Below are positions 1 to 16,479 of a DNA stretch of 64,000 nt, piece by piece. Location: the NCBI RefSeq assembly GCF_015476235.1, contig NZ_CP064338.1, positions 806,001 to 870,000 on the forward strand, in the 5' to 3' direction. The notes beneath the pieces are model-generated. The model made no database searches. It had not been told where the DNA came from and worked only from the letters and a program-made list of their open reading frames with translations. This stretch comes from Caldimonas thermodepolymerans (GTDB lineage: Bacteria; Pseudomonadota; Gammaproteobacteria; Burkholderiales; Burkholderiaceae_C). How positions within the stretch are numbered: position 1 is the first letter of the stretch; every line of letters starts with the position of its first letter. The translations under genes and the position numbers were made by a program.

Positions 1-107
1 TAGGGGAAACAGTGGAGCGACCGCGGGTTCCCACTCGGGTCCAATCCACACGCACAGTCAGGTCCGGTGCCGCGTGCGGCCCCCCTAGCCACACAGGAGT
101 GACATCG

Positions 108-3100
108 ATGGACATGAACCGGAGGCAGTTCTTCCGGGTCAGCGCCGCCGGGCTGGTTGGGTCCAGCCTGGTCGCGATGGGCTTCTCGCCCACCGCAGCG
201 CTGGCCGAGACGCGCAACTTCAAGCTCGCCCGTACCACCGAAAGCCGCAGCATCTGCCCGTACTGCTCGGTCAGCTGCGGGCTGGTCATCTACACGCTGG
301 GCGACAAGGCCAAGAACGTCAAGTCGTCGATCATCCACATCGAAGGCGACCCGGACCACCCCGTCAACCGCGGCACGCTGTGCCCCAAGGGCGCGGGCGT
401 GATGGACATGATCCAGTCGCCGAACCGGGTGCTGTACCCGCAGGTGCGCGAGCCCGGCAGCAACGAATGGAAGCGGATCACCTGGGATGAGGCGCTCACC
501 CGCATCGCGCGCCACATGAAGGACGACCGCGATGCCAACCTGATCCGCACCAACGACAAGGGCGTGACGGTCAACCGCTGGAACTCGGTGGCGTTCCTGA
601 TCTCGTCCGCCTCGTCCAACGAATCAGGCTACCTGAGCGTGAAGGTCGCTCGTGGCCTGGGGATGGTCGCACTCGATACACAGGCACGCATCTGACACGC
701 GCCGACGGTGTCCAGTCTGGGCCCGACTTTCGGTCGCGGAGCGATGACCAACTCGTGGACCGACATCCGCAACACGGATCTGGTCCTGATCATGGGCGGC
801 AACGCCGCCGAGGCACACCCGTGCGGTTTCAAGTGGGTGACCGAGGCGATGCAGCACCGCAAGGCCAAGCTCATCGTGGTCGACCCGCGCTTCACGCGCT
901 CGGCTGCGGTGGCGGACGTCTATGCCCCCATCCGCGTGGGGACCGACATCGCCTTCCTGGGCGGCGTCATCAACTACCTGCTGAGCAACGACAAGATCCA
1001 CCTCGAGTACGCCAAGTTCAACACCGACCTCACGTTCCTGCTGAAGCCGGAGTTCTCGTTCGACAACGGCCTGTTCAGCGGCTACAACGAGGAGCGCCGC
1101 GCCTATGACAAGTCGACCTGGGGCTACCAGATCGGCGAGGACGGCTACGTCAAGGTCGACGAAACCTTGCAGGACCCGCTGTGCGTGTACCAGCAGCTGA
1201 AGAAGCACTACAGCCGCTACACGCCGGAGATGGTCAGCCGCATCTGCGGCACGCCGCAGGACAAGTTCCTGCAGATCTGCGAGATGATCGGGGAGACCTC
1301 GGCGCCGGACAAGGTGATGACCATCATGTACGCGCTCGGCTGGACCCAGCACTCGGTGGGCTCGCAGAACATCCGGACGATGGCCATGATCCAGCTGCTG
1401 CTGGGCAACATGGGCCGTCCGGGCGGCGGGGTCAACGCGCTGCGGGGCCATGCCAACGTGCAGGGCATCACCGACATGAACGCCTACTCGGACGTGCTGT
1501 CGGGCTACATGAGCGCGCCCACCGACGCGGACACCAACCGCGCCGAGTACCTGGCGCGCCGCACGCTCAAGCCGCTGCGGCCGAACCAGATGTCGTTCCC
1601 GCAGAACTTCCCGAAGTGGCACACCAGCCTGATGAAGGCGTACTACGGCGACGCCGCGACGGCGGAGAACGACTACTGCTACGACTGGATCCCGAAGCGT
1701 GATGCAGGCTACGACGTCCTGCACATCTTCGAGCTGATGCACCAGGGCAAGATCAACGGCTTCCTCGTGCAGGGCTTCAACCCGATCGCGGCGGTGCCCA
1801 ACAAGAAGAAGCTGTCGGCGGCGCTGAGCAAGCTGAAGTACCTGGTCATCATGGACCCGCTCGAGACCGAGACCAGCGAGTTCTGGAAGAACTACGGTCC
1901 GCTCAACGACGTGGATCCGGCCACGATCCAGACCGAGGTGTTCCGGCTGCCGACCGCCTGCTTCGCAGAGGAGGCGGGCACGTTCACCAACTCCAGCCGC
2001 GTCATCTCGTGGAAGGAGAAGGCGGTCGACCCGCCGGGCGAGGCCAAGCCCGACTCGGAGATCATCGCGCGCCTGTTCATGAAGCTGCGCCAGCTGTACG
2101 CCAAGGAAGGCGGCACGCTGCCCGAGCCGATTGCGGCGCTGACCTGGCCGTACCTCAACCCGAACGTGCCGTCGCCCGTCGAGCTGCTGCGCGAGATCAA
2201 CGGCCGTGCGCTGCGCGACGTGCTCGCGCCGCCCGATCCGAAGAACCCGGACGCGCCGCGCGCCGTGCTGGTGAAGGCCGGCGAACAGCTGCCGGGCTTC
2301 GCGCTGCTGCAGGACGACGGCTCGACCGCGTGCGGCAACTGGATCTACAGCGGCTGCTTCACGCAGGCGGGCAACATGACCGCGCGGCGCGACACGTCCG
2401 ACCCCAGTGGCCTGGGCGTGTACCCGAACTGGGGCTTCGCGTGGCCGGCCAACCGCCGCATCCTGTACAACCGGGCGTCGGCCGACCCGTCGGGCAAGCC
2501 GTGGGATCCGAGCCGCACCTACCTGTACTGGAACGGCAGGTCCTGGGCCGGTGCGGACGTGCCCGACATGCGGCCCAACGCGAAGCCCGAGGAGGGCGTG
2601 GGCTCGTTCATCATGAACCCCGAGGGCGTGGCGCGCCTGCATGCCGTCGGCATGGCCGACGGGCCGTTCCCCGAGCACTACGAGCCCTTCGAGACGCCGG
2701 TGGGCGTGAACCTGATGTGCCCGGACAACCCGAAGGCCGTCAGCAACCCGGCCGCGCGCGTGTTCAAGGGCGACCTCGAGGCGTTCGGCACCAAGGAGGA
2801 GTTCCCGTACGCGGCGACCACCTATCGCCTGACCGAGCACCACCACTTCTGGACCAAGCACGCGCGCAGCAATGCGGTCGTGCAGCCCGCGCCGTTCGTC
2901 GAGATCGGCGAGGAGCTGGCCCGCGAGAAGGGGATCCGGCAGGGCGACAAGGTGCGCGTGCGCAGCAACCGCGGCGAGGTCATCGCCGCGGCGGTGGTCA
3001 CGCGGCGCATCAAGGGGCTCCATGTCGACGGCAAGGTCATCCACACCGTCGGCATCCCGATCCACTGGGGCTTCAAGGGCGTGACGCAGAACGGCTACCT

Positions 3101-3188
3101 CGCCAACTCGCTGACGCCGTTCGTCGGGGATGCGAACTCGCAGACCCCGGAGTTCAAGGCGTTCCTCGTGAATATCGAGAAGGTGTGA
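108..3188 (+). CDS. fdnG: Formate dehydrogenase-N/O major subunit, selenoprotein
   Basis: Molybdopterin- and selenocysteine-containing catalytic subunit that oxidises formate in the periplasm and passes electrons to the FeS subunit. The frame is open from ATG 108 to 3188 except for one UGA at 693-695, which falls at codon 196, the Sec position of E. coli FdnG/FdoG. It is followed by His and by the family sequence PTFGRGAMTN. Read through, the protein is 1026 aa, the normal family length. A twin-arginine signal (NRRQFF, then a hydrophobic stretch ending TAALA) starts it. The [4Fe-4S] cysteines are C50, C53, C57 and C92. The ATG was chosen for its AGGAG site and because the Tat motif follows at once. 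fdnH starts 11 bp downstream. A standard gene caller would split this gene into 108-695 and 708-3188. Confidence 0.96.
693..722 (+). promoter_or_regulatory. UGA Sec codon with bacterial SECIS-like hairpin
   Basis: The in-frame UGA (693-695) is followed 14 nt later by a small hairpin at 710-722: arms GTCCA and TGGGC with GTC at the tip (one G-U pair in the stem). E. coli fdnG and fdhF carry an apical hairpin with the same GUC-type loop at a similar distance, and SelB binds it there. The assignment rests on this geometry and on selA, selB and selC lying within 12 kb downstream. Confidence 0.88.
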
Positions 3189-3199
3189 GGAGGTAGGGC

Positions 3200-4081
3200 A
3201 TGGCCAGTCTGCAATCGCTCGACGTGGTGGCCCGCTCGGCCACCACCACCCCGACCCCGCAGGTCCGCAACGCGGTCCCGCAGGTCGCCAAGCTGATCGA
3301 CGAGTCCAAGTGCATCGGCTGCAAGGCCTGCCAGGTCGCCTGCATGAACTGGAACGACCTGCGCGACGAGGTCGGGCAGAACATCGGCGTCTACGACAAC
3401 CCGGCGGACCTCACGCCGAGCTCGTGGACGGTGATGCGCTTCTTCGAGGTCGAACCCGAGGAGGGCAAGCTCGAGTGGCTGATCCGCAAGGACGGCTGCA
3501 TGCACTGCGAGGACCCCGGGTGCCTCAAGGCCTGCCCGTCGCCGGGGGCGATCGTCAAGTACGCCAACGGCATCGTCGACTTCATCAGCGAGAACTGCAT
3601 CGGCTGCGGCTACTGCGTCAAGGGCTGCCCGTTCAACGTGCCGCGCATCAGCGCCAAGGACAACAAGGCGTACAAGTGCACCTTGTGTTCCGACCGCGTC
3701 GGTGTGGGGTTGGAGCCGGCCTGCGTGAAGACCTGCCCGACCGGGGCGATCGGCTTCGGCACGAAGCCGGACATGGTCGCCTACGCGCAGAAGCGGGTCG
3801 GCGAGCTCAAGGAGCGCGGCTTCCAGAACGCGGGGCTCTACAACCCCGAAGGCGTGGGCGGCACCCACGTGATGTACGTGCTCAAGCATGCCGACAAGCC
3901 CGAGCTGGAAGGCCTGCCGGCCAACCCGACCATCAGCTCGCTGGTGGCGCTGTGGAAGGGCGTGGCCAAGCCGCTGGCGCTGGCCGGCATGATCGGTGCC
4001 GTGCTGGCCGGGTTCTTCCACTACATGAAGGTCGGGCCGGTCGAGGAGAAGGCCGACAGCGACGAGAAGGCGGACGCCTGA
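3200..4081 (+). CDS. fdnH: Formate dehydrogenase iron-sulfur subunit
   Basis: 293-aa electron-transfer subunit of the membrane formate dehydrogenase. Four [4Fe-4S] cysteine clusters are visible in order: [35 protein letters not shown] and CTLCSDR...CVKTC. A single hydrophobic segment near residues 250-272 would anchor it to the membrane, as in FdnH/FdoH. There is an AGGAGG-like site before ATG 3200. The gene lies 11 bp after fdnG and 9 bp before fdnI, so the three are one transcript. Symbols fdoH or fdhB would be equally correct. Confidence 0.95.
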
Positions 4082-4090
4082 GGAGGCCCC

Positions 4091-4711
4091 ATGAGCAAGC
4101 TGATCCGACGCTACAGCGACGGCGAACGCCTGAACCACTGGGCGCTGGCCATCTTCTTCTTCCTGGCCGGCCTGTCGGGCCTCGCCTTCTTCCACCCGAG
4201 CCTGTTCTTCTTCAGCCACCTGTTCGGCGGCGGGGCCTGGGCGCGCATCCTGCACCCGTTCCTCGGGGTGCTGATGGTGCTCAGCTTCCTGGGCCTGTTC
4301 TTCCGGCTCTGGAAGGACAACCTCTTCGACGAGCGCGACCGGGAATGGCGCCGCAACGCCGGCCGGATGCTGCGTGGCGACAAGGCCGGCATGCCGCCGG
4401 TGGGCAAGTACAACGCCGGGCAGAAGACGGTGTTCTGGCTGATGGTGCTGAGCCTGCTGGTGCTGCTGGTCACGGGCTTCATGTTCTGGCGGCCCTGGTT
4501 CGCCCCGTACTTCACCATCGGCGTGATGCGCGTGGCGGTGCTGCTGCACTCGATTGCCGCGGTGGTGCTGGTGCTGACCGTCATCGTGCACATCTACGCG
4601 GCCATCTGGGTCAAGGGCACGGTGCGCGCGATGACGCGCGGCACGGTGTCCGAGGCCTGGGCGCGGCAGAACCATCCGCTGTGGCATCGCGAAGTGACGC
4701 AGGGCAAGTGA
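4091..4711 (+). CDS. fdnI: Formate dehydrogenase cytochrome b556 subunit
   Basis: 206-aa integral membrane protein with four hydrophobic segments and several histidines in them, as expected of the di-haem b gamma subunit that passes electrons from FdnH to quinone. It opens with RRYSDGERLNHW, typical of FdnI/FdoI. A ribosome site (AGGAGG) precedes ATG 4091. It completes the structural operon fdnGHI. Confidence 0.93.
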   Translation: MSKLIRRYSDGERLNHWALAIFFFLAGLSGLAFFHPSLFFFSHLFGGGAWARILHPFLGVLMVLSFLGLFFRLWKDNLFDERDREWRRNAGRMLRGDKAGMPPVGKYNAGQKTVFWLMVLSLLVLLVTGFMFWRPWFAPYFTIGVMRVAVLLHSIAAVVLVLTVIVHIYAAIWVKGTVRAMTRGTVSEAWARQNHPLWHREVTQGK

Positions 4712-4757
4712 GGCGGGCCATGGGGTGCCGGTTGCACGCAAAGGAGACAATGAACGC

Positions 4758-5774
4758 ATGACAGCCACGGGAACGGTGCGGGTGATGCCCGTCGAGGAGA
4801 TCGTCGCGCGCGGTGGCGGCAACGTGCCGTACCTGGCGCCGCCGGCGCGCGGGACCGTCTTCGCCGAACGGGGCATGCGCCTGCGCCAGCTCGCCGCCTC
4901 GCACGCGATGGGCGATTTCCTGCGCTTCATGGCCGACGTCTCGCTGGCGCAGCAGGAGCTGCTGAACCGCCATCCCGAGGTGCCGCTGCCGGATGCGCAG
5001 GCATTGGACGATGCGGCGCGCTGCGGGGTGCCGCCGCTGTCGGCCACCGACTGGCCGCGCGATGCGGCCTGGCGCCAGGTGCTGCGCGACCTCGTCACCA
5101 AGGTGCGGGTTGCCGCGCCCGAGGCTGCACGGCCCGTGATCGACCGCCTGCTGCAATGGGACGACGTGCAGCTCGAGCGGCAGGCCGACGGCCTGCTGCA
5201 CGGCGTGATGCACGGGCTGGACCTGGCCACCGCACCGCTGGTGGCCGCCGCGCTACAGGTGCACTGGACGCACCTGGTCATTGCCACCCAGGAACGGCAC
5301 CAGGGCGGCGGGTCGGCCTTCGGCCGGCTCGACGACCACGGGCGCTGTCCCTGCTGCGGCAGCCGGCCCACCGCCAGCGTGGTGCGCCCGGCCGGTGATG
5401 CGCCGGGCCAGCGCTACCTGCACTGTTCGCTGTGCTCGATGCAGTGGCACATGGTGCGCGCGCGCTGCACGCACTGCGGCGCCACCGGGCACATTGCCTA
5501 TGAATCCCTGGAGGCGGCCGACGCGCCGGGCGACGAGCCGCCGCGCCTGGCCGCGGTGCAGGCCGAGACCTGCGACGACTGCGGCCATTACCTCAAGATC
5601 GTGCACACCGAGCGCGATCCGTTCGCGGAGCCGGTGGCCGACGACCTGGCGACGCTGACGCTGGACCTGCTGGCCTGCGAAGCGGGCCGGCAACGCTACG
5701 GCGTCAACCTGATGCTGCTGTACGGCGAACCCGAACCACCGGGAGACTCGCCTCCCACGCCGGGAGGTCATTGA
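4758..5774 (+). CDS. fdhE: Formate dehydrogenase accessory protein FdhE
   Basis: 338-aa cytoplasmic protein needed to make active respiratory formate dehydrogenase. The C-terminal half carries the rubredoxin-like cysteine pairs of the family: CPCCGSRP, CSLCSMQW, CTHCG and CDDCG. ATG 4758 was chosen because it follows the AAGGAGA site and matches the usual family length; a GTG at 4725 would only add a few residues. Its TGA overlaps the ATG of selA, so enzyme maturation and selenium insertion are translationally coupled. Confidence 0.93.
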   Translation: MTATGTVRVMPVEEIVARGGGNVPYLAPPARGTVFAERGMRLRQLAASHAMGDFLRFMADVSLAQQELLNRHPEVPLPDAQALDDAARCGVPPLSATDWPRDAAWRQVLRDLVTKVRVAAPEAARPVIDRLLQWDDVQLERQADGLLHGVMHGLDLATAPLVAAALQVHWTHLVIATQERHQGGGSAFGRLDDHGRCPCCGSRPTASVVRPAGDAPGQRYLHCSLCSMQWHMVRARCTHCGATGHIAYESLEAADAPGDEPPRLAAVQAETCDDCGHYLKIVHTERDPFAEPVADDLATLTLDLLACEAGRQRYGVNLMLLYGEPEPPGDSPPTPGGH

Positions 5775-7216
5775 TGGCCCGGCCCAGCGAGTCCGTCGTG
5801 TACGGTTCCCAGGCCAGCCCCAAGGACCTGCCCTCCGTGGACCGTCTGTTGCGCCAGCCCGCCGTGGCGGCGCTCGTCGACACCCATGGCCACACGCTGG
5901 TCGCCGCGGAAGTGCGCGCGATGCTCGACGCGCTGCGCGCCCGCGCGGTGGCGGGCGAGCTGACGCAGGCCGAGGTGGAGCCCGGGGCGCTGGCTGCCCG
6001 GCTGGCCGGACGCGTCGAGGCGCGCCTGGCCCCCCGCATGCGCGCGGTGCTCAACCTGACCGGCACGGTGCTGCACACCAACCTCGGCCGCGCGCTGCTG
6101 GCCGACGAGGCGCTGCAGCACCTGATGGCGATGATGTCCGGGCCGAACAACCTCGAGTACGACCTGGCCTCGGGCGGGCGCGGCGACCGCGACAGCGTGG
6201 TCGAGGAGCTGCTGTGCACGCTCACCGGCGCCGAGGCGGCGACCGTGGTCAACAACAACGCCGGCGCGGTGCTGCTGACCATCGCGGCGCTGGCGCGCGG
6301 GCGCGAGGTGGTTGTCTCGCGCGGCGAGCTGGTCGAGATCGGGGGCGCGTTCCGCATGCCCGACGTGATGGCCAGCGCCGGCGCGCAGATGGTCGAGGTC
6401 GGCACCACCAACCGCACCCACCCGCACGACTACGAGCGTGCGATCAACGAGCGCACCGCGCTGGTGATGAAGGTGCACACCAGCAACTACGCGGTGCAGG
6501 GCTTCACCGCGAGCGTCAGCGAGGCCGAACTGGCCGAAATCTGCCGCGCCCGCGGCGTGCCGCTGGCCACCGACCTGGGCAGCGGCGCACTGGTGAACAT
6601 GGAAGACTACGGCTTGCCGCACGAGCCAACCCCGCAGGAGATGCTCAAGGCCGGCTGCGACGTGGTCACCTTCAGCGGCGACAAGCTGCTCGGCGGCCCG
6701 CAGGCCGGGCTGATCGTCGGCACGCGCGAGGCGGTCGGGCGCATCCGCAAGTTCCCGATGAAGCGGGCCCTGCGCATGAGCAAGCTGCCGCTTGCGGCGC
6801 TGGAGGCGACCCTGCGGCTGTACCTGCGGCCCGAGCGGCTGACCCGCGACCTGCCGACGCTGCGCCTGCTGACCCGCCCGGTGCAGGAGATCGAGGCGCT
6901 GGCGCGTGCGCTGCAGGCCGAGGTGGCCGCGGCGGTGGCGCCGCACTACGCGGTCGAGGTGGTGGCGTTGATGGGGCAGATCGGCTCGGGTTCGCTGCCG
7001 GTCGAGCGCCTGCCCTCGGCGGGGCTGGCGATCGCGCCGCTGCAGCGCCAGGGCATCGGCCGCGCGCTCGACCGGCTGGCCGAGGCCTTGCGCGGGCTGC
7101 CGGTGCCGGTGATCGGCCGCATTGCCGACGACCGCCTGTTGCTGGACCTGCGTTGCCTGGAAAATCCGGACCTTTTCGTGCGCCAGCTTCCAGCGCTGCG
7201 CGAGGTGCTGGCCTGA
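5774..7216 (+). CDS. selA: L-seryl-tRNA(Sec) selenium transferase
   Basis: 480-aa pyridoxal-phosphate enzyme that converts seryl-tRNA(Sec) to selenocysteyl-tRNA(Sec) using selenophosphate. The PLP lysine is K304 in FSGDKLLGGPQAG. The N-terminal tRNA-binding part and LNLTGTVLHTNLGRA are also typical. The ATG overlaps the fdhE stop codon by one base. No selD (selenophosphate synthetase) is in the window, so it must be elsewhere in the genome. Confidence 0.97.
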   Translation: MARPSESVVYGSQASPKDLPSVDRLLRQPAVAALVDTHGHTLVAAEVRAMLDALRARAVAGELTQAEVEPGALAARLAGRVEARLAPRMRAVLNLTGTVLHTNLGRALLADEALQHLMAMMSGPNNLEYDLASGGRGDRDSVVEELLCTLTGAEAATVVNNNAGAVLLTIAALARGREVVVSRGELVEIGGAFRMPDVMASAGAQMVEVGTTNRTHPHDYERAINERTALVMKVHTSNYAVQGFTASVSEAELAEICRARGVPLATDLGSGALVNMEDYGLPHEPTPQEMLKAGCDVVTFSGDKLLGGPQAGLIVGTREAVGRIRKFPMKRALRMSKLPLAALEATLRLYLRPERLTRDLPTLRLLTRPVQEIEALARALQAEVAAAVAPHYAVEVVALMGQIGSGSLPVERLPSAGLAIAPLQRQGIGRALDRLAEALRGLPVPVIGRIADDRLLLDLRCLENPDLFVRQLPALREVLA

Positions 7217-7254: not shown

Positions 7255-8616
7255 ATGTCGCTTGATCGACGCCACTTCCTCATCGGCGCGGCCGCCGCGT
7301 CCACCGGCTGGCTGTCCGGCTGTGCCAGCCCGGCCGGTTCCTCGTCCCCGGCGGCCACGACGCTGCCGCCCATGATCGGCCTGCCCGGCCAGCAGCTGAT
7401 GCCCAAGGGGCGCGCCCCGCGCGTGGTGGTGGTCGGCGGCGGCTGGGGCGGCCTGACCGTCTCCAAGCAGCTGCGCCTGAAGGCGCCGCAGGCCGAGGTG
7501 GTGATGCTCGAGCGCAACCCGGTGTTCTTCTCCTGCCCGTTGAGCAACAAGTGGCTCAACGACATCGTCGACGACAGCTTCCTCACGCACGACTACCTCA
7601 AGGTGTCGCAGGCGCACGGCTACAAGTACGTGCAATGCGAGGTCACCCATGTCGACCGCGCGGCACGGCGGGTCTACACCAGCCAGGGGCACCTGGACTA
7701 CGACTACCTCGTGCTCGCGCCCGGCATCCGCTACAACTACGAGGCCTGGTTCGGCAACGACCGCGCGGCGGCGGATGCGACGCGCACCCGCTTCCCGGCC
7801 GCCTACATTCCCAACGCCGAGCACTTCACGCTCAAGCGCGCGCTGCAGTCCTTCAAGGGCGGCGACTGGGTCATGACACTGCCGCCGCCGCCGCAGCGCT
7901 GCCCGCCCTCGCCCTACGAGCGGGCCTGCATGATCGCCTACTACTTCAAGAGCCACGGCATCAAGGGCCGGGTCACCATCCTGGACCACAAGCCGCGCAT
8001 CATGCCGATCGGCCCGGGCTTCCGTGCCGCCTTCGAGGAGCTGTACAAGGACTACATCACCTACGTGCCCAATGCGCACGTGCAGGAGGTGGATCCCTTC
8101 AACAAGCGCATCCGCACCTCGGCCGGCGACATGAAGTTCGACCATGCGACGCTGATGGCGCCGCACCAGGCCGGCGACATCGCCTGGAAGGCCGACGCGA
8201 TCGCGCGCGGCCCGGACGGCAAGCCCACCGGCTGGACCGACGTCGACCCGCTGAAGCTGCACCTGCGCGGCGACGACCGCGTCTACGTGATCGGCGACGC
8301 GGTGGGCCGGGTCGCGCCGACCTTCGGCTTCTATCCCAAGAGTGCGCACGTCGCCAACGCGCTGGGCCACATCGTGGCCGGCTACATCGGCGAGCGCCTG
8401 GCCGGCCGCAGCCCGAAGGACGAGTTGCCGGACAACCTCTGCTACATGATGGTCAATGGCAACCCGCGCGAGGCGATCAGCGTGCAGTTCGACTACGTCG
8501 TCAACTCGAAGGGCGAGATCGAGCAGACCCAGATCGACGACAACGAGCGGCGCGAGGAACTCGTCACCGAGAACTTCCGCTGGGCGTCGCTGAAGTTTGA
8601 CGACATGTTCGCATGA
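7255..8616 (+). CDS. Exported FCSD-type FAD-dependent oxidoreductase
   Basis: 453-aa flavoprotein resembling the flavin subunit of flavocytochrome-c sulfide dehydrogenase (FccB/SoxF). The start carries RRHFLIGAAAASTGW...SGCA, a twin-arginine-type signal that could also be a lipoprotein signal. A Rossmann FAD motif (VVVVGGGWGGL) is followed by FFSCPLSNKW and RCPPSPYERAC, the cysteine and proline motifs of this family, and by a second nucleotide site VYVIGDAVGR. FccB normally oxidises sulfide to sulfur. Here it is inserted between selA and selB, with a thioredoxin-like gene overlapping its end by 4 bp. Its substrate (sulfide, selenide or a disulfide) cannot be read from sequence. No cytochrome-c partner is adjacent. 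Confidence 0.85.
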   Translation: MSLDRRHFLIGAAAASTGWLSGCASPAGSSSPAATTLPPMIGLPGQQLMPKGRAPRVVVVGGGWGGLTVSKQLRLKAPQAEVVMLERNPVFFSCPLSNKWLNDIVDDSFLTHDYLKVSQAHGYKYVQCEVTHVDRAARRVYTSQGHLDYDYLVLAPGIRYNYEAWFGNDRAAADATRTRFPAAYIPNAEHFTLKRALQSFKGGDWVMTLPPPPQRCPPSPYERACMIAYYFKSHGIKGRVTILDHKPRIMPIGPGFRAAFEELYKDYITYVPNAHVQEVDPFNKRIRTSAGDMKFDHATLMAPHQAGDIAWKADAIARGPDGKPTGWTDVDPLKLHLRGDDRVYVIGDAVGRVAPTFGFYPKSAHVANALGHIVAGYIGERLAGRSPKDELPDNLCYMMVNGNPREAISVQFDYVVNSKGEIEQTQIDDNERREELVTENFRWASLKFDDMFA

Positions 8617-9236
8617 TGACGAGGGCACGGCGCCTTTCTCGCAGTCCCTCGCCCGACTTGCACGGGCCGGGCGGCATGCCTCCCGGCGGCCTGGGCGGGG
8701 AGGGCGCCGTCGCCTTCGTGCCGGCGCGGCGCCGGCTGGTGGCCGCGCTCGCGCTCGGCCTCGCGCTGCCGGAACTGGCGGCGCAAACCGAGGGCGGGCC
8801 GCTGTACCGGCCCTGGCCCCGGGGCCGCGCGACGCCCGGGCTGGACCTGCCGGCCTGGGAGGGCGGCCGCTGGTCGCTGGCGCACTCGCGCGGGCGCGTC
8901 GTGGTGCTCAACTTCTGGGCCAGCTGGTGCCCGCCGTGCGTCACCGAGCTGCCCTCGCTGGAGCTGCTGGCCGCGCGCCACGAGTCCGACGGGGTCGAGG
9001 TGCTGGCGGTGAACTTCCGCGAGACCGACGCCGCGGTGCGGCGCTTCCTCGAGCGCCAGCCGCTGACGCTGCCGGTGCTGCGCGACGCCGACGGCGCGGC
9101 GGCGAAGGCGTTCGGCGTGCGCGTGTTTCCCACCACGGTGGTCGTCGGCCGCGACGGCCGGGCCGCCTTCACCGTGACCGGCGAGTGCGACTGGGGCGGG
9201 CCGCAGGCCCGCGCCTGGATGGCTGCCGTCGTCTGA
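8613..9236 (+). CDS. TlpA-like thiol-disulfide protein
   Basis: 207-aa thioredoxin-fold protein with the active site WASWCPPC and the cis-proline region VFPTTVVV. A hydrophobic segment (VAALALGLALPELAAQ) after a long basic N terminus is probably a signal or anchor, so it should act in the periplasm. The ATG overlaps the stop of the upstream FAD oxidoreductase (ATGA), which argues for joint expression. It may reduce the cysteine pair of that flavoprotein or of the next gene product; this is inference from position. A later start near residue 22 is possible. Confidence 0.85.
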   Translation: MMTRARRLSRSPSPDLHGPGGMPPGGLGGEGAVAFVPARRRLVAALALGLALPELAAQTEGGPLYRPWPRGRATPGLDLPAWEGGRWSLAHSRGRVVVLNFWASWCPPCVTELPSLELLAARHESDGVEVLAVNFRETDAAVRRFLERQPLTLPVLRDADGAAAKAFGVRVFPTTVVVGRDGRAAFTVTGECDWGGPQARAWMAAVV

Positions 9237-9271
9237 CTTCGTCCTCTCCTTCGCTGCACAAGGAACCTGCC

Positions 9272-10384
9272 ATGACCTGTCGTCTCACCCGCCGTCACCT
9301 GCTGCGCACCGGCGCCGCCGCCGCGACGCTGCCCTGGCTCCCGCGGGTCGCCAGCGCCCAGGAGCGCCGCTTCGCACCACAACCCGACGGCTGGCGCACC
9401 TTCGAGGTGACCACCACCGTCACGGTGGCCGACGTGCAGGGCACCACGCGCCTGTGGCTGCCCATCCCGGACCTCGACACGCCCTGGCAACGCAGCCTGG
9501 ACCACAGCTGGACCGGCAACGCGTCGCGCGTGGCGATCGTGGCGGATGCGCCGCGCGGCGTGCGCATGCTCTACGCCGAGTTCCCGCCGGGGGTCGCCGA
9601 GCCGACCCTCGCGCTGACCAGCCGCGTGCAGACCCGCAACCGCACGGTCGACTGGAACCGCCCGGCCGGCGTGCGCGAGGACCCGGCCGTGCTGCGTGCC
9701 GCGCTGCGGCCGACCGAACTCAAGCCGCTGGATGGCATCGTGCGCAAGACCGCGCTGGAGGCGACCCGCGGCGCGCGTACCGACTTCGACAAGGTGCGCG
9801 CGATCTACGACTGGGTGGTCGCCAACGCGCACCGCGAGCCCAAGGTGCGCGGCTGCGGCACCGGCGACATCGTCACGATGCTGGAGACCGGCAACCTGGG
9901 CGGCAAGTGCGCCGACCTGAACGCGGTGTTCGCCGGCCTGTGCCGTGCGGTGGGCGTGCCGGCGCGCGACGTCTACGGCCTGCGCGTCGCGCCTTCGGCG
10001 TTCGGCTACAAGGAGCTGGGGGCCAACCCGGCCAACCTGACCGGCGCGCAGCACTGCCGCGCCGAGGCGTACATCGCCGGCCACGGCTGGGTCGCGATGG
10101 ACCCGGCCGACGTGCTGAAGGTGATGCGCCAGGAAACCCCCGAGTGGATCCGTGACACGGACCATCCCGTGGTCGCGCCGGTGCGCGCCGGCCTGTTCGG
10201 CAACTGGGAGGGCAACTGGATCGGCTGGAACACCGCCAACGACCTGATGCTGCCCGGCAGCGCGGGCAAGGCCAGCCTGCCGTTCCTGATGTACCCGAAC
10301 GGCGAGAACGACAGCGGCCGCTTCGACGAGCTGTCGCCGGACACCTTCCGCTACCGCATCCAGGGACGCGAGATCACGGCCTGA
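9272..10384 (+). CDS. Exported transglutaminase-like domain protein
   Basis: 370-aa protein with a twin-arginine-like signal (TRRHLLRTG...LPRVASAQ) and a transglutaminase/protease-like core. The catalytic Cys is in [11 protein letters not shown], the His in [11 protein letters not shown] and an Asp follows. Proteins of this family act as peptidases or amide-cleaving enzymes; no substrate is evident here. It is 35 bp downstream of the TlpA-like gene and 3 bp before selB, so it belongs to the same transcript. Confidence 0.85.
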
Positions 10385-10387
10385 CGC

Positions 10388-12319
10388 ATGATCATCGGCA
10401 CCGCAGGACACATCGACCACGGCAAGACGACGCTGGTGCGCGCGCTCACGGGCGTGGACACCGACCGGCTGCCCGAGGAGAAGAAGCGGGGCATCAGCAT
10501 CGAGCTGGGCTACGCCTTCCTCGACGTCCCGCAGAGCACGCAGCGCATCGGCTTCATCGACGTGCCGGGCCACGAGCGGTTGGTGCACACCATGTTGGCC
10601 GGCGCCACCGGCATCGACTTCGGCCTGCTGCTGGTGGCCGCCGACGACGGCGTGATGCCGCAGACGCGGGAGCACCTCGCGGTGCTGTCGCTGCTCGGCG
10701 TGCAGCGCGGGGCGGTGGTGATCACCAAGGCCGACCGCGCCGACGCGGACCGCCTCGCCGCCGTGCGGGCCGATGTCGGGCAGCTGCTGCAGCACAGTTC
10801 GCTGCAGGGCGCGCCGGTGTTCGCGCTGTCGGCGCACACCGGCGAGGGCGTCGAGGCCCTGCGCGAGCACCTGTACGAACAGGCGCGCCAGCTGGGCGAG
10901 CGCGCGCCGGACGGTCGCGCGTTCCGCCTCGCGGTGGACCGTGCCTTCACGCTCGACGGCGTCGGCACCGTCGTGACGGGCACCGTCCATGCCGGCCGCG
11001 TGGCGGTCGGCGACGAGCTGGTGCTCTCGCCGGGCCCCGGCGCCCGGGTGCGCGTGCGCAGCCTGCATGCGCAGAACCGGCCGGTCGAGCAGGCCGCGGC
11101 CGGACAGCGCTGCGCCGTCGGTCTGGCCGGCATCGCCAAGCAGGACATCGAGCGCGGCCAGTGGTTGGTGCATCCGGCCTGCGCGTTGGCCACCGACCGC
11201 ATCGACGCGACGCTCACGCTGTGGCACGAGGAAGCGAAGGCCCTGCGCAGCGGCACGCCGGTGCATGTGCACATCGGCGCCGCGTCGGTGCCCGGTTCGG
11301 TGGCCGTGCTCGACCGCGAGACGCTGCCTCCGGGCGAGACCGCACGCGTGCAGCTGGTGCTGCGCGCGCCGGTCGGCGCCTGGCATGGCGACCGGGTGGT
11401 GCTGCGCGACGCCTCGGCCAGCCGCACGCTGGCCGGCGGCACCGTGCTCGACCCGTTCGCGCCGGTGCGCTACCGCCGCACTGCGCAGCGCCTGGCCGAG
11501 CTCGACGCGCTGGCGCAGCCCGGGCTGGCCGGGCGGGTGGCAGGGCTGCTCGCGGTGGCGCCCTACGGTGTCGACTTGCGGCGGCTGGCGGCTGCGCAGG
11601 GCCTGGAGTCGACGCAGCCGCTGGCCGACGTGCTGCCGGCCGCGGCGCTGCACCTGCACGATGCCCGCGCCGACCTCGCGCTCGGCGAAACCCAGGCCAC
11701 GGCGGTGCGTGCCAGCGTGGTCGAGGCCCTGTCCGCCTACCACCAGCGCCACCCGGACGAACTCGGGCCCGATGCGGCGCGCCTGCGCCGGCTCGCGCAG
11801 CCACGCATGCCCGAAGCCCTGTGGCGGCACCTGCTCGTGCTGCTGCAGGCCGACGGGACGCTCGCGGTGCGCGGCGCCTTCGTGCACCTGCCGGCGCACG
11901 GCGTGCGCCTGTCCGCGGTGGACCAGCGCATCGCGCAGAAGGTGGCACCCCGGCTTGCGGAATCCGGTTTCGAGGGGTGCTGGGCGCGTGACCTGGCGCG
12001 CGACTGCGGCGAGTCCGAACCGCTGATGCGCACGACGCTCGCGCGGCTGGCACAGCGCGGCGAACTCCATCAAGTGGTGAAAGACCTCTACTACTCGGTC
12101 GAGACGATGGCGAAACTGGCGGCCCTGGCGCGACAGCTTGCCGGGCAGAGCGAGCGGCTCGCGGTCACGGCGGCCGCGTTTCGCGACGCGACCGGGCTGG
12201 GCCGCAAGCGCGCGATCCAGATCCTCGAATACTTCGATCGCATCGGCCTGTTGCGCCGGGTCGGTGACGAGCATCGCCTGCGCACCGACAGCACGCTGTT
12301 TGCCGAGGAAGCGGCATGA
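10388..12319 (+). CDS. selB: Selenocysteine-specific translation elongation factor SelB
   Basis: 643-aa GTPase that carries Sec-tRNA(Sec) to the ribosome at SECIS elements. The EF-Tu-like G domain is at the N terminus ([22 protein letters not shown]), followed by beta-barrel domains and the C-terminal winged-helix repeats that bind the SECIS hairpin. The end ([19 protein letters not shown]) is characteristic of the last winged helix. It begins 3 bp after the transglutaminase gene; selC follows 22 bp after its stop. Confidence 0.97.
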
Positions 12320-12341
12320 ATGCCGGTTCCTGCAACTCCGC

Positions 12342-12437
12342 GGAGGGGAGACGATCCTGGTGGGTCGGCCGGGCTTCAAACCCGGTGGGTGACGCCATGC
12401 GTCGCTGGGTGGGTTCGACTCCCATTCCCCTCCGCCA
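12342..12437 (+). tRNA. selC: tRNA-Sec (anticodon TCA), selC
   Basis: 96-nt tRNA with encoded CCA end. The acceptor stem has 8 bp (GGAGGGGA pairs with TCCCCTCC), discriminator G. The anticodon stem is CCGGG/CCCGG around loop CTTCAAA, giving anticodon TCA for UGA. A long variable arm (GGGTGACGCCATGCGTCGCT region) is present, as in tRNA-Sec. General tRNA finders may miss this because of the long acceptor stem. It lies between selB and the LbpA-like gene. Confidence 0.97.
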
Positions 12438-12449
12438 TCCCGTTCACCC

Positions 12450-12884
12450 ATGAACATCTGCGGCTTCGAGTTTCCCGACGAGCTCTGGATCCTGGTCGAG
12501 CACCAGGTGTGGGCACGCCTGCACGAGGACGGCGCCGCCACCGTCGGCATCACCTCGGTGGGGGCGCGCGAGGCGGGCGAGATCTACATGTGCCGGCCCA
12601 AGCCGGTGGGCACGCGGGTCGAGCGCGGCCGCTCGGTCGCGGTGGTGGAGCTGGCCAAGTCCATCGTCTCGGTCAAGTCGCCGGTGGGCGGCGAGGTGGT
12701 CGAGGTCAATCCCCGGCTGGCGCAGGAACCCGAACTGGCCTACAAGGACGTCTATGGCGACGGCTGGCTGGTGCGCCTGCGCGTGTCCGACTTCGAGGCC
12801 GACCGACCTCACCTGCGGCGCGGCGCGGCGCTGCGCGGCGCCGTCGAACACTACCTCTGGCTCAACAAGGTCGAACGTCCATGA
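12450..12884 (+). CDS. Lipoate-binding GcvH/LbpA-like protein
   Basis: 144-aa biotinyl/lipoyl-domain protein. The lipoylation lysine is K70 in VELAKSIVSVKSP, aligned with the ESVKAA motif of glycine-cleavage H protein. The N terminus (FPDELWILVEHQVWARLHEDG) and GRSVAVVE resemble LbpA, the lipoate-binding protein of the sulfur-oxidising sHdr system, more than classical GcvH. A C-terminal tail of about 30 residues is extra. It starts 12 bp after the tRNA-Sec 3' end and overlaps the DsrE-like gene by 4 bp. No gcvT or gcvP is nearby, so a role in glycine cleavage is not supported by context. A sulfur or selenium carrier role is inference. Confidence 0.8.
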   Translation: MNICGFEFPDELWILVEHQVWARLHEDGAATVGITSVGAREAGEIYMCRPKPVGTRVERGRSVAVVELAKSIVSVKSPVGGEVVEVNPRLAQEPELAYKDVYGDGWLVRLRVSDFEADRPHLRRGAALRGAVEHYLWLNKVERP

Positions 12885-13276
12885 GCGATGCCGGTCACGA
12901 AGCCGAAGGCGTGGCGATCCTGCTGTGGGCCACCGACCCCGCGGCGCCGCACCGCCTGGTGACGCCGTTCTTCCATGCCGCGGCCGCCGCGGCGATGGAC
13001 GTGCCGGTCGAGATCTACTTCACCGCGCGCAGCGTGCACCTGCTGGTGCCTGGCGTGGCCGACGCGCTGCGCGCCAGCCCGCACCATCGCAAGACCGTCG
13101 GCGACGCGATGCGCGAAGCGGTCGCGCATGGGGCGAGGCTCTACGCCTGCACCGACGCGCTGCACGCGCAGGGCCTGGACCCGCAGCAACTCATCCCCGA
13201 ATGCGCCGGGCACGGCGGCGCGGTGCAGTTCATGGCACGGGCCTGCGACCTGCGCTGGCGCACGCTCGTGTTCTGA
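12881..13276 (+). CDS. DsrE/TusD-like sulfur-carrier family protein
   Basis: 131-aa single-domain protein of the DsrE fold, with the pattern AAAAAMDVPVEIYFT and a conserved-position cysteine C90 in GARLYACTDAL; a second Cys lies in IPECAG. DsrE-family proteins carry persulfide sulfur on such a cysteine. Translation is coupled to the LbpA-like gene through an ATGA overlap. A GAGCCC/GGGCTC hairpin at 13275-13296 ends the unit, without a clear T tract. The pair LbpA-like plus DsrE-like mirrors part of sHdr gene clusters, but here it sits behind selC. Confidence 0.78.
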   Translation: MSDAGHEAEGVAILLWATDPAAPHRLVTPFFHAAAAAAMDVPVEIYFTARSVHLLVPGVADALRASPHHRKTVGDAMREAVAHGARLYACTDALHAQGLDPQQLIPECAGHGGAVQFMARACDLRWRTLVF

Positions 13277-13542
13277 GCCCCGAACCCGGCGGGCTCCGGC
13301 ACGGCGACCGGATGCTTCCTCGCGGCGTTGGCGTGCCGACTTGCGGCCGGTAACGATCGCTTTCGATTTCCCCGCATCCTGGGTGTGCGGCAGCGGTGTC
13401 AGGCTGTGCGAGACTGCCGCCCGGCTCAAGGCGCGTGCACGAACGACCACAGAAGCGACGCGCGCCTGCAGCGAGGCCCGCACCTGCCGGGATGCGGTCT
13501 CGCGTCGCCAAGAAGAACAAGACGATCGGGGAGGTGATCTGC

Positions 13543-16479
13543 ATGACACACGGGGCCGATGCCACCCTGGAGGCCATGGCGCGCGCGTCGGGCGTGGCCT
13601 TCAGCGCCGAGACCCGCCTGTACGAGCTGGAAGGCCGCGCCGCGGACGGTCTGCTGCTCGAAGCCTACAGCGGCCACGAGGCGCTCAACGAGGTCTTCGA
13701 GTACCGCCTGACGGTGCTCTCGACCGACGCGCACCTCGACCTCGCTGCGCTGCTCGGCCAGCCGCTGCGCCTGCGCATCCGGCTGGCCGACGGCCGCAGC
13801 AGTCACCGCAGCGGCCTCGTGACGCAGGCGGTGGCCTTGCACAGCGACGGGGGCCTGGCGCGCTACGAACTGATCCTGCGGCCCTGGCTCGCGGCGCTGG
13901 ATCTCACGTGGCGCAGCCAGACCTTCCTCGAACAGGACGCGTTGCAGATCGCCGAGCACCTGTTCCGGTCCTGCCAGCCTCTGGCCTCGTGGCGCCTGGC
14001 CGACGAAGTCGCTTCGTTCATCGCCGAAGCCGGCCCGCGGCCGTGCTGCAACCAGTTCCGCGAGACCGACCTGCAGTTCCTCACGCGGCTGTTCGCGGAA
14101 GAAGGCCTGGGGTGGTACGTCGAGGAGGACCCCGAGGCCCCTGCGCAGCACCGCCTCGTCTGTTTTGCCGACAGCACCCGGTTGCCGCGCGATCCCACCG
14201 ACGCTGCCGACGGCGGGCTGCGCCACCACCGCGCCAGCAGCCAGCCCGCGCGCGACACCATCCAGTGGCTCGCGTGCAGCGAGCACCTGCATCCCGGCCT
14301 GGTCACCGTGCTGGCCTGGGACCCGCAGCATCGCCGCAGCCACACTGCCAGCGTCCCCATCCAGGCACAGGGTCCACACGCCACACGGCTTGAGCACTAC
14401 GCCCCCGGCACCGGCCTGGCCGTGCACGGTGCTGTCCCGCACCGGGCGGTGCAACGCCATGCCTGGTTGCAGGCCCAGGCCTTCGAGGCCGCCGCCTGCC
14501 GCTACCAGGGCCGTTCCACCGTGCGCAGCCTGCGTGCGGGCCGGCGCATCACCGTGCACGACGCTCCGCAGGCCGCCGGCGAACCCCTGGAACTGCTGGT
14601 GACCGCGGTGACCAGCGCTGGCATCAACAATCTCCCCAGGGAGCTGATCGAAGCCGTGGCGCGCCGCCTCGGTCCCTGCTCCCTGAGCGGCGAGCTGCCC
14701 GATGCCGTGCGCCGCGAGGCCGCCGTGCACGGCCATGCCAACGTCTTCCAGGCCATCGATGCGCGTCGTCCCTGGCGCCCGCAGCCCGTCACGCGGCCGA
14801 CGGTCTCCGGTCCGCAGAGTGCGCTGGTGGTCGGTCCCGATGGAGAGACCGAAGGCGAGGGCATCCACACCGACCGCTACGGGCGCATCCGCGTGCGCTT
14901 CCACTGGCAGGAGGCCGGTCACCCGGGGGCCAGTGCCCACAGCCTGTGGGTGCGCGTGGCCCAGCCCTGGGCCGGTGCGGGCATGGGCAGCCAGTTCCTG
15001 CCTCGCATCGGACAGGAGGTGCTGGTCGACTTCGAGGAGCGCGACATCGACCGCCCCATCGTGCTGGGCGCGCTCTACAACGGTCGCGGCGAAGCCGGTG
15101 TTCCACCCACACCGGGTGGAGCCACCGCCACGGCGCACACCGAGGTCCTGCACCACAGCACCGACCACCGGCCGAGTGCCCAGGGCAACCTCTGCGACGG
15201 TGGACACGCACCGGCCTGGCATGGCGCGGCGGCGCAGGCCCAGCACAACGCCGCGGCACTGGGCGGCATCAAGAGCTGCGAACTCGAGGGTACGGGGGCC
15301 AACGAACTGCGCTTCGACGACAGCAACGCCCAGCTGGCGCTGCGTGCGGCCACCACCCAGCATGCGAGCTGGTTGCAGCTCGGCCACCTGCTGCACTATG
15401 CCGACAACCACCGTGGCAGCCTGCGCGGGCTGGGGCTGGAGCTGCGCACCGATGCCTACGGGGCCATCCGCGGCGGCCGGGGGCTGATGCTGAGCAGCTA
15501 TCCGGCCCAGCCCGCCACACCCGCAGGGGATGCCACGCCGGCCGTTGCGCTGGCCCGGCAGATGGTCGGGCAGGCCGCGCAGTTCAGCCACGCGGCGCGG
15601 ACCCATGGGAGCGTCCCTCTCGCGGGTCACGAAGGCAGCGATGAACCTGGCAGCAGCCGCCTCCGCGACCAGGCTGCGCCGCTCGAGGCGCTGCAGCAGG
15701 CCTTGCGTGGCACGGTCGACGCACAGGACTTCGCGCGGGCCTGCGACGACGCCGACCGGCGTCACACCCGGGCTGCCGACGACAAGGTGCCGCACGTCAC
15801 CGACCCGCTCGTCGCGATCTGCGCGCGGGCCGGCCTTGCGCTGACTGCGGGGCAGGACGTGCTGCTGGCCGCAGGCGAGGTGCTGCACACGGCGGCGGGC
15901 CGCGACGTGCACCAGGCCGTGGGTGGACAGGCCCGCCTGCACACCGGCCAGGCCATCGGCGTGCTCGCCGGGGCCGTCGGGCCAGGGGAGGGGGCTGCAG
16001 GCACCGGGCTCACGATGGTCGCCGCGCAAGGTCCGGTGGAATGCCAGGCGCAGGACGGTCCGATGCAGCTGGCCGCCCACGGGCTCGTCGACGTGCGCTC
16101 GCGTCATGCGCACATCGACTGGGCGGCCGCCACGCGCGTCGTGCTCGCCACCGCAGGCGGCGCGTGCATCACGATCGACGCACAGGGCATCACCTGCCAG
16201 TGCCCCGGAAAGTTCACAGTGCGTGCGGCGCGCAAGCGGTTCGCCGGGCCCAGCACGGTGGCGGCCGAGCTGAACGCCTGGCCCGGGCCGCTGCCGCTGG
16301 ACGAGGAGTTCAAGCTGGTCTGGCCGTTCGACGAGACCCCGGTCGTCGGCCGCCGGTTCGAGATCACCCGCCAGGACGGCACGACCGTGCGCGGCGTCAC
16401 GGACGCGCACGGGCGCAGCGGCCTGCAGCGCAGCCTGTTGCCCGAGGGGGTGGGATTGCGGATGCTGGACGAGGTCTGA
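13543..16479 (+). CDS. vgrG: Type VI secretion tip protein VgrG
   Basis: 978-aa spike protein. The gp27-like N-terminal part (YSGHEALNEVFEYRLTVLS, VTQAVALH...RYELILRPWLAAL) is followed by the gp5 OB-fold (DRYGRIRVRFHWQ, GSQFLPRIGQEVLVDF, DRPIVLGALYNG), then a DUF2345-type beta-helix extension and a short C-terminal tail ending in the next gene. Start 13543 is placed after a GGGGAGG site; the open frame extends upstream without family similarity. No other T6SS structural gene is in the window, so this is an orphan VgrG island with its cargo directly downstream. Confidence 0.94.
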   Translation: MTHGADATLEAMARASGVAFSAETRLYELEGRAADGLLLEAYSGHEALNEVFEYRLTVLSTDAHLDLAALLGQPLRLRIRLADGRSSHRSGLVTQAVALHSDGGLARYELILRPWLAALDLTWRSQTFLEQDALQIAEHLFRSCQPLASWRLADEVASFIAEAGPRPCCNQFRETDLQFLTRLFAEEGLGWYVEEDPEAPAQHRLVCFADSTRLPRDPTDAADGGLRHHRASSQPARDTIQWLACSEHLHPGLVTVLAWDPQHRRSHTASVPIQAQGPHATRLEHYAPGTGLAVHGAVPHRAVQRHAWLQAQAFEAAACRYQGRSTVRSLRAGRRITVHDAPQAAGEPLELLVTAVTSAGINNLPRELIEAVARRLGPCSLSGELPDAVRREAAVHGHANVFQAIDARRPWRPQPVTRPTVSGPQSALVVGPDGETEGEGIHTDRYGRIRVRFHWQEAGHPGASAHSLWVRVAQPWAGAGMGSQFLPRIGQEVLVDFEERDIDRPIVLGALYNGRGEAGVPPTPGGATATAHTEVLHHSTDHRPSAQGNLCDGGHAPAWHGAAAQAQHNAAALGGIKSCELEGTGANELRFDDSNAQLALRAATTQHASWLQLGHLLHYADNHRGSLRGLGLELRTDAYGAIRGGRGLMLSSYPAQPATPAGDATPAVALARQMVGQAAQFSHAARTHGSVPLAGHEGSDEPGSSRLRDQAAPLEALQQALRGTVDAQDFARACDDADRRHTRAADDKVPHVTDPLVAICARAGLALTAGQDVLLAAGEVLHTAAGRDVHQAVGGQARLHTGQAIGVLAGAVGPGEGAAGTGLTMVAAQGPVECQAQDGPMQLAAHGLVDVRSRHAHIDWAAATRVVLATAGGACITIDAQGITCQCPGKFTVRAARKRFAGPSTVAAELNAWPGPLPLDEEFKLVWPFDETPVVGRRFEITRQDGTTVRGVTDAHGRSGLQRSLLPEGVGLRMLDEV

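Follow-up and report, generated by a model that had tools for sequence, protein, structure and literature searches.

Why should the gene for a selenocysteine tRNA be followed almost immediately by genes for a predicted lipoyl-carrier protein and a predicted sulfur carrier? This question is raised by the window, a stretch of 64,000 nt that corresponds to positions 806001-870000 of the one-contig, 3.86 Mb genome of Caldimonas thermodepolymerans. Its first 13.3 kb constitute a selenocysteine (Sec) formate dehydrogenase (FDH) cluster, and the gene pair lies at the end of this cluster. According to the original prediction, an LbpA-like protein, here called LBP, and a DsrE-like protein might hand over selenium or sulfur and thereby feed selenophosphate synthesis. 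We have examined this proposal by comparing the pair with its relatives and with the gene content of related bacteria.

Organization of the locus

The genes of the cluster are arranged in the order FDH alpha-beta-gamma, fdhE, selA, a flavoprotein gene, a ResA/TlpA-like gene, a transglutaminase-type gene, selB, selC, LBP, and DsrE (Table 1). Coupling of the last two genes, and their start directly behind tRNA-Sec, had been proposed and is confirmed by the ATGA through which the LBP stop overlaps the DsrE start and by the predicted 3′ end of selC, which precedes the LBP start by 12 nt. Likewise, the earlier statement that no Hdr subunit is encoded here is borne out across the fdh-sel cluster as read.

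Table 1. Features of the Sec-FDH cluster and the adjoining gene pair, in window coordinates
Feature	Position	Strand	Evidence or remarks
FDH alpha subunit	1..3188	+	5′ end outside window; Sec TGA in frame at 693-695, with open codons on both sides (302 before, 830 after)
SECIS element	690..748	+	RF01989 SECIS_3, 69.2 bits
FDH iron-sulfur beta subunit	3200..4081	+	Fer4_11, Form-deh_trans
FDH cytochrome b-like gamma subunit (presumed)	4091..4711	+	named by position; conserved in relatives' loci
fdhE	4725..5774	+	TIGR01562, 249 bits
selA	5771..7216	+	TIGR00474, 587 bits
selB	10388..12319	+	TIGR00475, 471 bits
selC, tRNA-Sec	12342..12437	+	ARAGORN; Rfam RF01852, 80 bits
LBP, GcvH/LbpA-like lipoyl-carrier protein	12450..12884	+	144 aa; K70
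DsrE-like sulfur carrier (predicted)	12881..13276	+	131 aa; C90; overlaps LBP by ATGA

No ribosome-binding site is evident by eye in the gap between selC and LBP (12437-12450), which measures 5 nt in one relative (G438), and processing of the tRNA 3′ end would yield a nearly leaderless LBP message. A scan of positions 12200-13600 for promoters and terminators found nothing. The possibility that selC had served as an island insertion site was considered, and none of the ORFs read next to the pair was noted as an integrase. A T6SS VgrG gene (13396-16479) lies directly behind it.

Between selA and selB, the flavoprotein (7255-8616) matches the central domain of flavocytochrome c sulfide dehydrogenase (PF21706, 84 bits) and has a Tat-like start by eye; its position is kept in some relatives, not all. 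The ResA/TlpA-like and transglutaminase-type genes (8613-10384) recur between selA and selB in several relatives, and similar genes are found beyond selD instead in G237.

A third lineage of predicted lipoyl-carrier proteins and its DsrE-like partner

The two proteins belong to the families that had been named for them. LBP has the H-protein fold and matches the Pfam model GCV_H (PF01597; 2.7e-29, 102 bits, cut-off 22.2). As in the LbpA proteins of sHdr sulfur oxidation, a GcvH-type single lipoyl domain with a conserved lysine is present: K70, in the motif ELAKSIVSVK, occupies the position of the lipoyl lysine when aligned with GcvH proteins of solved structure, lies in a turn between two strands of the predicted structure (pLDDT 96.5), and is invariant in all 40 of the relatives aligned (alignment A3, which left out two of the 42 LBPs). 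As expected of the DsrE superfamily, the partner protein passes the Pfam cut-off (PF02635; 6.6e-8, 33.2 bits, cut-off 22.7), adopts the DsrE fold, and carries a conserved cysteine, C90, which is invariant in 42 of 42 aligned relatives. It has an ACTDAL-type motif and matches DsrE only, with no match to SirA, and neither member of the pair matches FdhD-NarQ. Among plasmid records, 152 match LBP, all at less than 60% identity, and none match the DsrE-like protein.

An ordinary GcvH was ruled out as the identity of LBP, which scores below both NCBIfam cut-offs for this protein (TIGR00527, 76.1 versus 115.85; NF002270, 93.9 versus 117), falls outside the GcvH clade, and is not encoded with gcvT or gcvP. 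In the same respects it differs from the Streptococcus GcvH-L protein (5a35). The gcvT-gcvH-gcvP genes of this genome, named by reading, are located elsewhere. When the proposed comparison with GcvH and LbpA was made, in an unrooted tree of 86 proteins, a branch with support of 100/99 separated 23 GcvH rows from 21 LbpA and 42 LBP-type rows. Most of the LBP-type proteins (39 of 42) form a clade of their own beside LbpA (96/91), and the long-branched G188, G398, and G484 proteins are placed uncertainly beside it. The tree program warned of long branches and of unsettled bootstrap values, and only the G093 locus among the LbpA rows was read as an sHdr cluster, the others being labeled by locus or motif.

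LBP is also not a plain LbpA. The available part of PMC6067878 describes two strictly conserved cysteines of LbpA, one near each terminus, and both of these signature residues are missing here: the GC that precedes xP is GF in LBP, the C-terminal cysteine is absent, and C4 is not at the LbpA position. Both copies from family f47 keep only the N-terminal signature cysteine. Given the tree branches and the absent signature cysteines, LBP-type proteins are, on the criteria of sequence, a third lineage beside GcvH and sHdr LbpA.

The same two protein families adjoin in the LbpA1-DsrE-LbpA2 arrangement of sHdr-type loci, although only LBP followed by DsrE is present in the order here, and the DsrE proteins of the two settings are 30-38% identical. 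Furthermore, the LBP lysine motif contrasts with ESGKWVGP of sHdr LbpA. The sHdr LbpA genes lie in or beside the shdr cluster, whereas LBP lies in an FDH-Sec cluster in which no sHdr gene was recognized; unlike sHdr LbpA, it has no recognizable slpl or lipS gene beside it. The C. thermodepolymerans genome contains only two matches to LBP, namely the protein itself and GcvH, and two to the DsrE family, namely the pair member and one more, which speaks against an sHdr system in this genome. The idea that the pair is an sHdr remnant was rejected because there is no second LbpA-like match and just this one further DsrE-family match. Most likely, LBP-DsrE is a module shared with sulfur oxidation. 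The LbpA proteins of sHdr systems are lipoylated by sLpl(AB) together with LipS1/S2. A search of the C. thermodepolymerans genome with PF03099, a model that need not cover all lipoate ligases, found one protein, which we take to be a biotin ligase.

Distribution of the pair

Genomes were sampled evenly at three levels, rather than as all species: 399 from the family of C. thermodepolymerans (f1), 399 at the level of the order, and 369 at the level of the class. Within f1, the DsrE protein of the pair (at least 145 bits) is present in 34 of 399 genomes, which represent 17 genera. All 34 are among the 104 genomes in which SelB exceeds its cut-off (Fisher p ~1e-22, not a true probability because the genomes are kin), and no intact DsrE gene of the pair type was found in the 295 genomes below that cut-off. 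Therefore, far from occurring mainly in genomes without sel genes, the LbpA-like and DsrE-like proteins of the pair are indeed encoded in selenocysteine loci, and the link to selenium genes holds as linkage. The next DsrE matches, in G155 (62 bits) and more weakly in G319 and G385, are from genomes below the SelB cut-off. These are C-terminal remnants of 43, 22, and 21 residues with 82-86% identity (L364 2813-2941, L365 3807-3869, and L366 8763-8828), and they suggest that the pair decays after loss of the Sec-FDH cluster.

Measured between start coordinates, the DsrE gene of the 34 f1 genomes lies no more than 3.6 kb from selB in 29, no more than 30 kb away in four, and on another contig in one. 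The order selB-selC-LBP-DsrE on a single strand is observed in 26; the pair is inverted just behind selC in three, and in the remainder it lies 16-30 kb off (four) or on the other contig (one). FDH genes lie upstream in 31 of the 34 loci. The contigs of G207 and G349 end at selA, and no FDH gene was found in the 115-190.9 kb part of the 205 kb contig of G403 that bears selB and the pair. Recurrence with the same neighbors in 17 genera of the family argues that the association is not due to chance.

At the level of the order, the pair is also located behind selB in families f13, f23, f31, f37, and f39. A transglutaminase-type gene lies between selC and the pair in f31, and no FDH was seen within the 20 kb locus read for G484 (f39). 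The two f47 loci have a different arrangement. In G742 the order is fdhABC-fdhE-LBP-DsrE, with the pair directly behind fdhE and no sel gene between, and in G659 the pair follows fdhE with one ORF between. An ABC permease gene (NF038017; the next model, TupB, gives 172 bits, below its cut-off) comes after the G742 pair, and moeA (588 bits) is divergent. Most other order-level DsrE loci that were read carry DsrE alone, without LBP. A separate group of lone DsrE proteins from other Burkholderiales families (L233, L235-L247, L249-L255) scores 137-156 bits against the model; many have an ACGGA motif, and no LBP is present in the short loci read.

Among the 369 class-level genomes, 29 loci were read besides the one studied here. 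All are LbpA-like, 28 have the ESGKW motif, and no FDH or SelB match occurs in their 1.5 kb flanks. In the sampled genomes, the pair was not found next to an FDH of the cysteine type, nor in any genome negative for SelB.

Whether or not the pair is present, SelD exceeds its cut-off in nearly every SelB genome tested (59 of 60). A preference of the pair for the vicinity of SelD was considered and rejected, as SelD lies within 25 kb of SelB in only one of the 34 pair genomes (G403); among the pair-lacking genomes tested, it lies within about 12 kb of SelB in 11 of 26. A gene that replaces the pair behind selC in pair-lacking genomes was also sought, but no single gene occurs in most of the 20 loci read, selD being present in five. 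In the C. thermodepolymerans genome, selD is within about 4 kb of a gene for a tungstate-binding-protein-like product (TupA, 242.8 bits, cut-off 400; L222 1709-7652).

FdhD is undetected in many pair-bearing genomes

The sulfur that FdhD delivers to the FDH cofactor comes from IscS, and in the absence of FdhD the FdhF enzyme retains both metal centers but is inactive, as reported in the portion of PMC10609526 available. We tallied this protein in 100 of the 104 SelB genomes, of which 34 carry the pair and 66 lack it. With TIGR00129, 12 of the pair genomes exceed the cut-off, nine have a match below it, and 13 have nothing, whereas all 26 pair-lacking genomes searched with this model pass. The PF02634 model, which scores the FdhD protein of C. 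thermodepolymerans (below the TIGR00129 cut-off) at 243 bits, gave no match in these 13 either and detected FdhD in 39 of 40 further pair-lacking genomes. Overall, no FdhD was detected in 13 of the 34 genomes with the pair, as against one of the 66 SelB genomes that lack it (Fisher p 1.4e-6, with rows that are kin). The contig of the single exception, G399, ends 197 bp behind selC, which leaves the usual pair site mostly unread; no trace of DsrE is present in these 197 bp, and its congener G272 carries the pair.

Ten of the 13 FdhD-less pair genomes encode an uninterrupted Sec-FDH alpha subunit on both sides of the TGA. The remaining three are G200, which is cut off, G349, which ends in selA, and G403, in which no FDH was seen nearby. 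The Sec-FDH enzymes of FdhD-less genomes would be expected to need sulfuration. An FdhD-family protein is retained in the other 21 pair genomes, including that of C. thermodepolymerans, which means that the pair does not simply substitute for FdhD. Outside f1, FdhD was found in seven of seven pair genomes tested, and therefore the pair and FdhD can coexist.

The FdhD proteins themselves (a tree of 52) sort in part with the pair. Clade B (19 rows, with a modest SH-aLRT of 85) is represented in 19 of the 26 genomes that lack the pair but in none of the 34 that bear it. Its genes lie within about 15 kb of selB in 13 of 19 cases, and the representative in G194 is beside FDH-N, that in G243 elsewhere. 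Clade A and its unresolved neighbors (21 rows) are mixed; clade-A genes adjoin an NAD-type FDH alpha gene in G159 and a YdeP-type gene in G123. Members of clade X have lost the second cysteine, and 11 of its 12 rows are from pair genomes. This altered FdhD is located beside FDH-N, together with the pair, in g14 and g37 (G274 and G044 were read), and near a second FDH-like alpha subunit in G386 and C. thermodepolymerans. The latter subunit has a cysteine at the Sec position (RICHSTTVAG; L262 6015-11967). Loss of the cysteine proves little, because the CxxC cysteines of FdhD/FdsC are not strictly required (PMC6239281, excerpt).

Kinship limits how far these counts can be taken. A SelB tree of 57 genomes offers five independent contrasts, in which FdhD absence accompanies the pair in 2.3 on average and never the opposite, a result that is not significant by sign test. 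On this tree, FdhD absence corresponds to six changes and the pair label to five. Sec and FDH-N are confounded in f1. The G243 genome offers a telling contrast: its neighbors on the tree bear the pair and are FdhD-less (SH-aLRT 94), whereas G243 itself has no pair and carries a clade-B FdhD.

A proposed sulfur relay and competing explanations

Our preferred reading, which we put forward tentatively, is that the pair is a sulfur relay that matures the upstream respiratory Sec-FDH and is able to replace FdhD. A cytoplasmic sulfur donor, namely a cysteine desulfurase acting directly or via a carrier, would place a persulfide on C90 of the DsrE-like protein. The lipoyl dithiol on K70 of LBP would then take up this sulfur or release it reductively, and LBP would pass it to the catalytic subunit, where it would give the Mo/W-bisMGD the sulfido ligand that FDH needs. 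Such a relay would act in place of FdhD, and genomes that bear the pair could consequently lose fdhD. A DsrE persulfide and a lipoyl dithiol would bring sulfur and reductant together, and FDH can be sulfurated in vitro by sulfide under reducing conditions (PMC12140954, in part). DsrE3C and LbpA handle sulfur in the sHdr system (excerpts of PMC11582611 and PMC6067878), where sulfur is thought to move from rhodanese to DsrE3C and then to sHdr-LbpA (PMC11582611).

The proposed job is that of FdhD/FdsC, the FDH accessory sulfurtransferase that delivers sulfur to bis-MGD, from which the pair is partly exclusive in gene content. However, there is no sequence relation between the two, and the pair consists of two small proteins with no known binding of bis-MGD or GDP. 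More doubtful is the bolder version of this proposal, in which the Mo/W center receives its sulfur directly from the lipoyl group and the pair alone, without FdhD, sulfurates the Sec-FDH bis-MGD of some Burkholderiales by reuse of a sulfur-oxidation module. A literature search that covered titles and the openings of abstracts revealed no paper on these bacteria that connects FDH or selC with a lone DsrE or an LbpA/GcvH-like protein.

The main rival is the feeding of selenium, as originally predicted, which we now consider unlikely. C90 would carry a selenopersulfide from which the lipoyl dithiol releases selenide for SelD, in support of selenophosphate and Sec synthesis. The presence of SelB in all 34 pair genomes of f1, the lack of intact DsrE genes below the SelB cut-off, and the position of most copies immediately behind selC are what this explanation would lead one to find, as is G403, which has the pair with selB and selD and no FDH seen nearby. 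There is also a precedent in YedF (FdhU), a SirA-DsrE protein with ties to SelD that in Campylobacter has been connected with the biogenesis of FDH (PMC5322559, excerpt). Thus, a DsrE-like domain is associated with selenium genes and FDH in both cases, but YedF combines a SirA-like domain with a DsrE domain bearing CGxC (same excerpt), whereas here DsrE stands alone and has no CGxC.

Yet the pair is absent from 66 named SelB genomes, and SelD was found in nearly all of those tested whether or not the pair is present. Moreover, the G742 pair adjoins fdhE rather than sel genes, and the inverse pattern is with fdhD, which a role in selenium supply does not predict. The location of the G742 pair and the tendency of FdhD absence to go with the pair favor FDH over selenophosphate, and sulfuration of the FDH cofactor accounts for the pattern more fully than a supply of selenophosphate does. 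Hand-over of a chalcogen is plausible, but its use to feed selenophosphate synthesis is not supported.

Less probable still is a repair function, with the pair working alongside FdhD either to put back the sulfido ligand of FDH, which is oxygen-labile, or to hold it in the reduced state. FDH-N acts in the periplasm, yet no export signal is evident by eye in either pair protein, and repair leaves the 13 FdhD-less genomes unexplained. Its appeal comes from the 21 pair genomes that keep an FdhD-family protein and from the report that the sulfido ligand is quickly lost with O2 and can be restored with sulfide under reducing conditions (PMC12140954, in part).

The H-protein fold of LBP and the formate gene context could also indicate that LBP, partnered by DsrE, has a redox or one-carbon function around formate that depends on the lipoyl group and has no link to cofactor sulfur. 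We regard this as improbable given the branch that separates GcvH from LbpA and LBP-type proteins, the DsrE-fold partner with its invariant cysteine, and the genuine gcvT-gcvH-gcvP genes elsewhere. Equally improbable is a passenger that landed behind selC by chance and was inherited with the FDH-Sec cluster, since the shared ancestry of pair and cluster and the few changes of the pair label on the SelB tree fit such a history, but both K70 and C90 are retained across seven families, even where the pair is inverted (three genomes), 16-30 kb off (four), or behind fdhE (G742).

Implications

With the sulfur relay as the preferred reading, the LBP-DsrE pair offers, for a single bacterial group, a concrete candidate for a system that matures FDH, and it gives lipoate a possible further kind of job. 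The findings suggest that a module of sulfur oxidation has been reused for the maturation of a metal cofactor.
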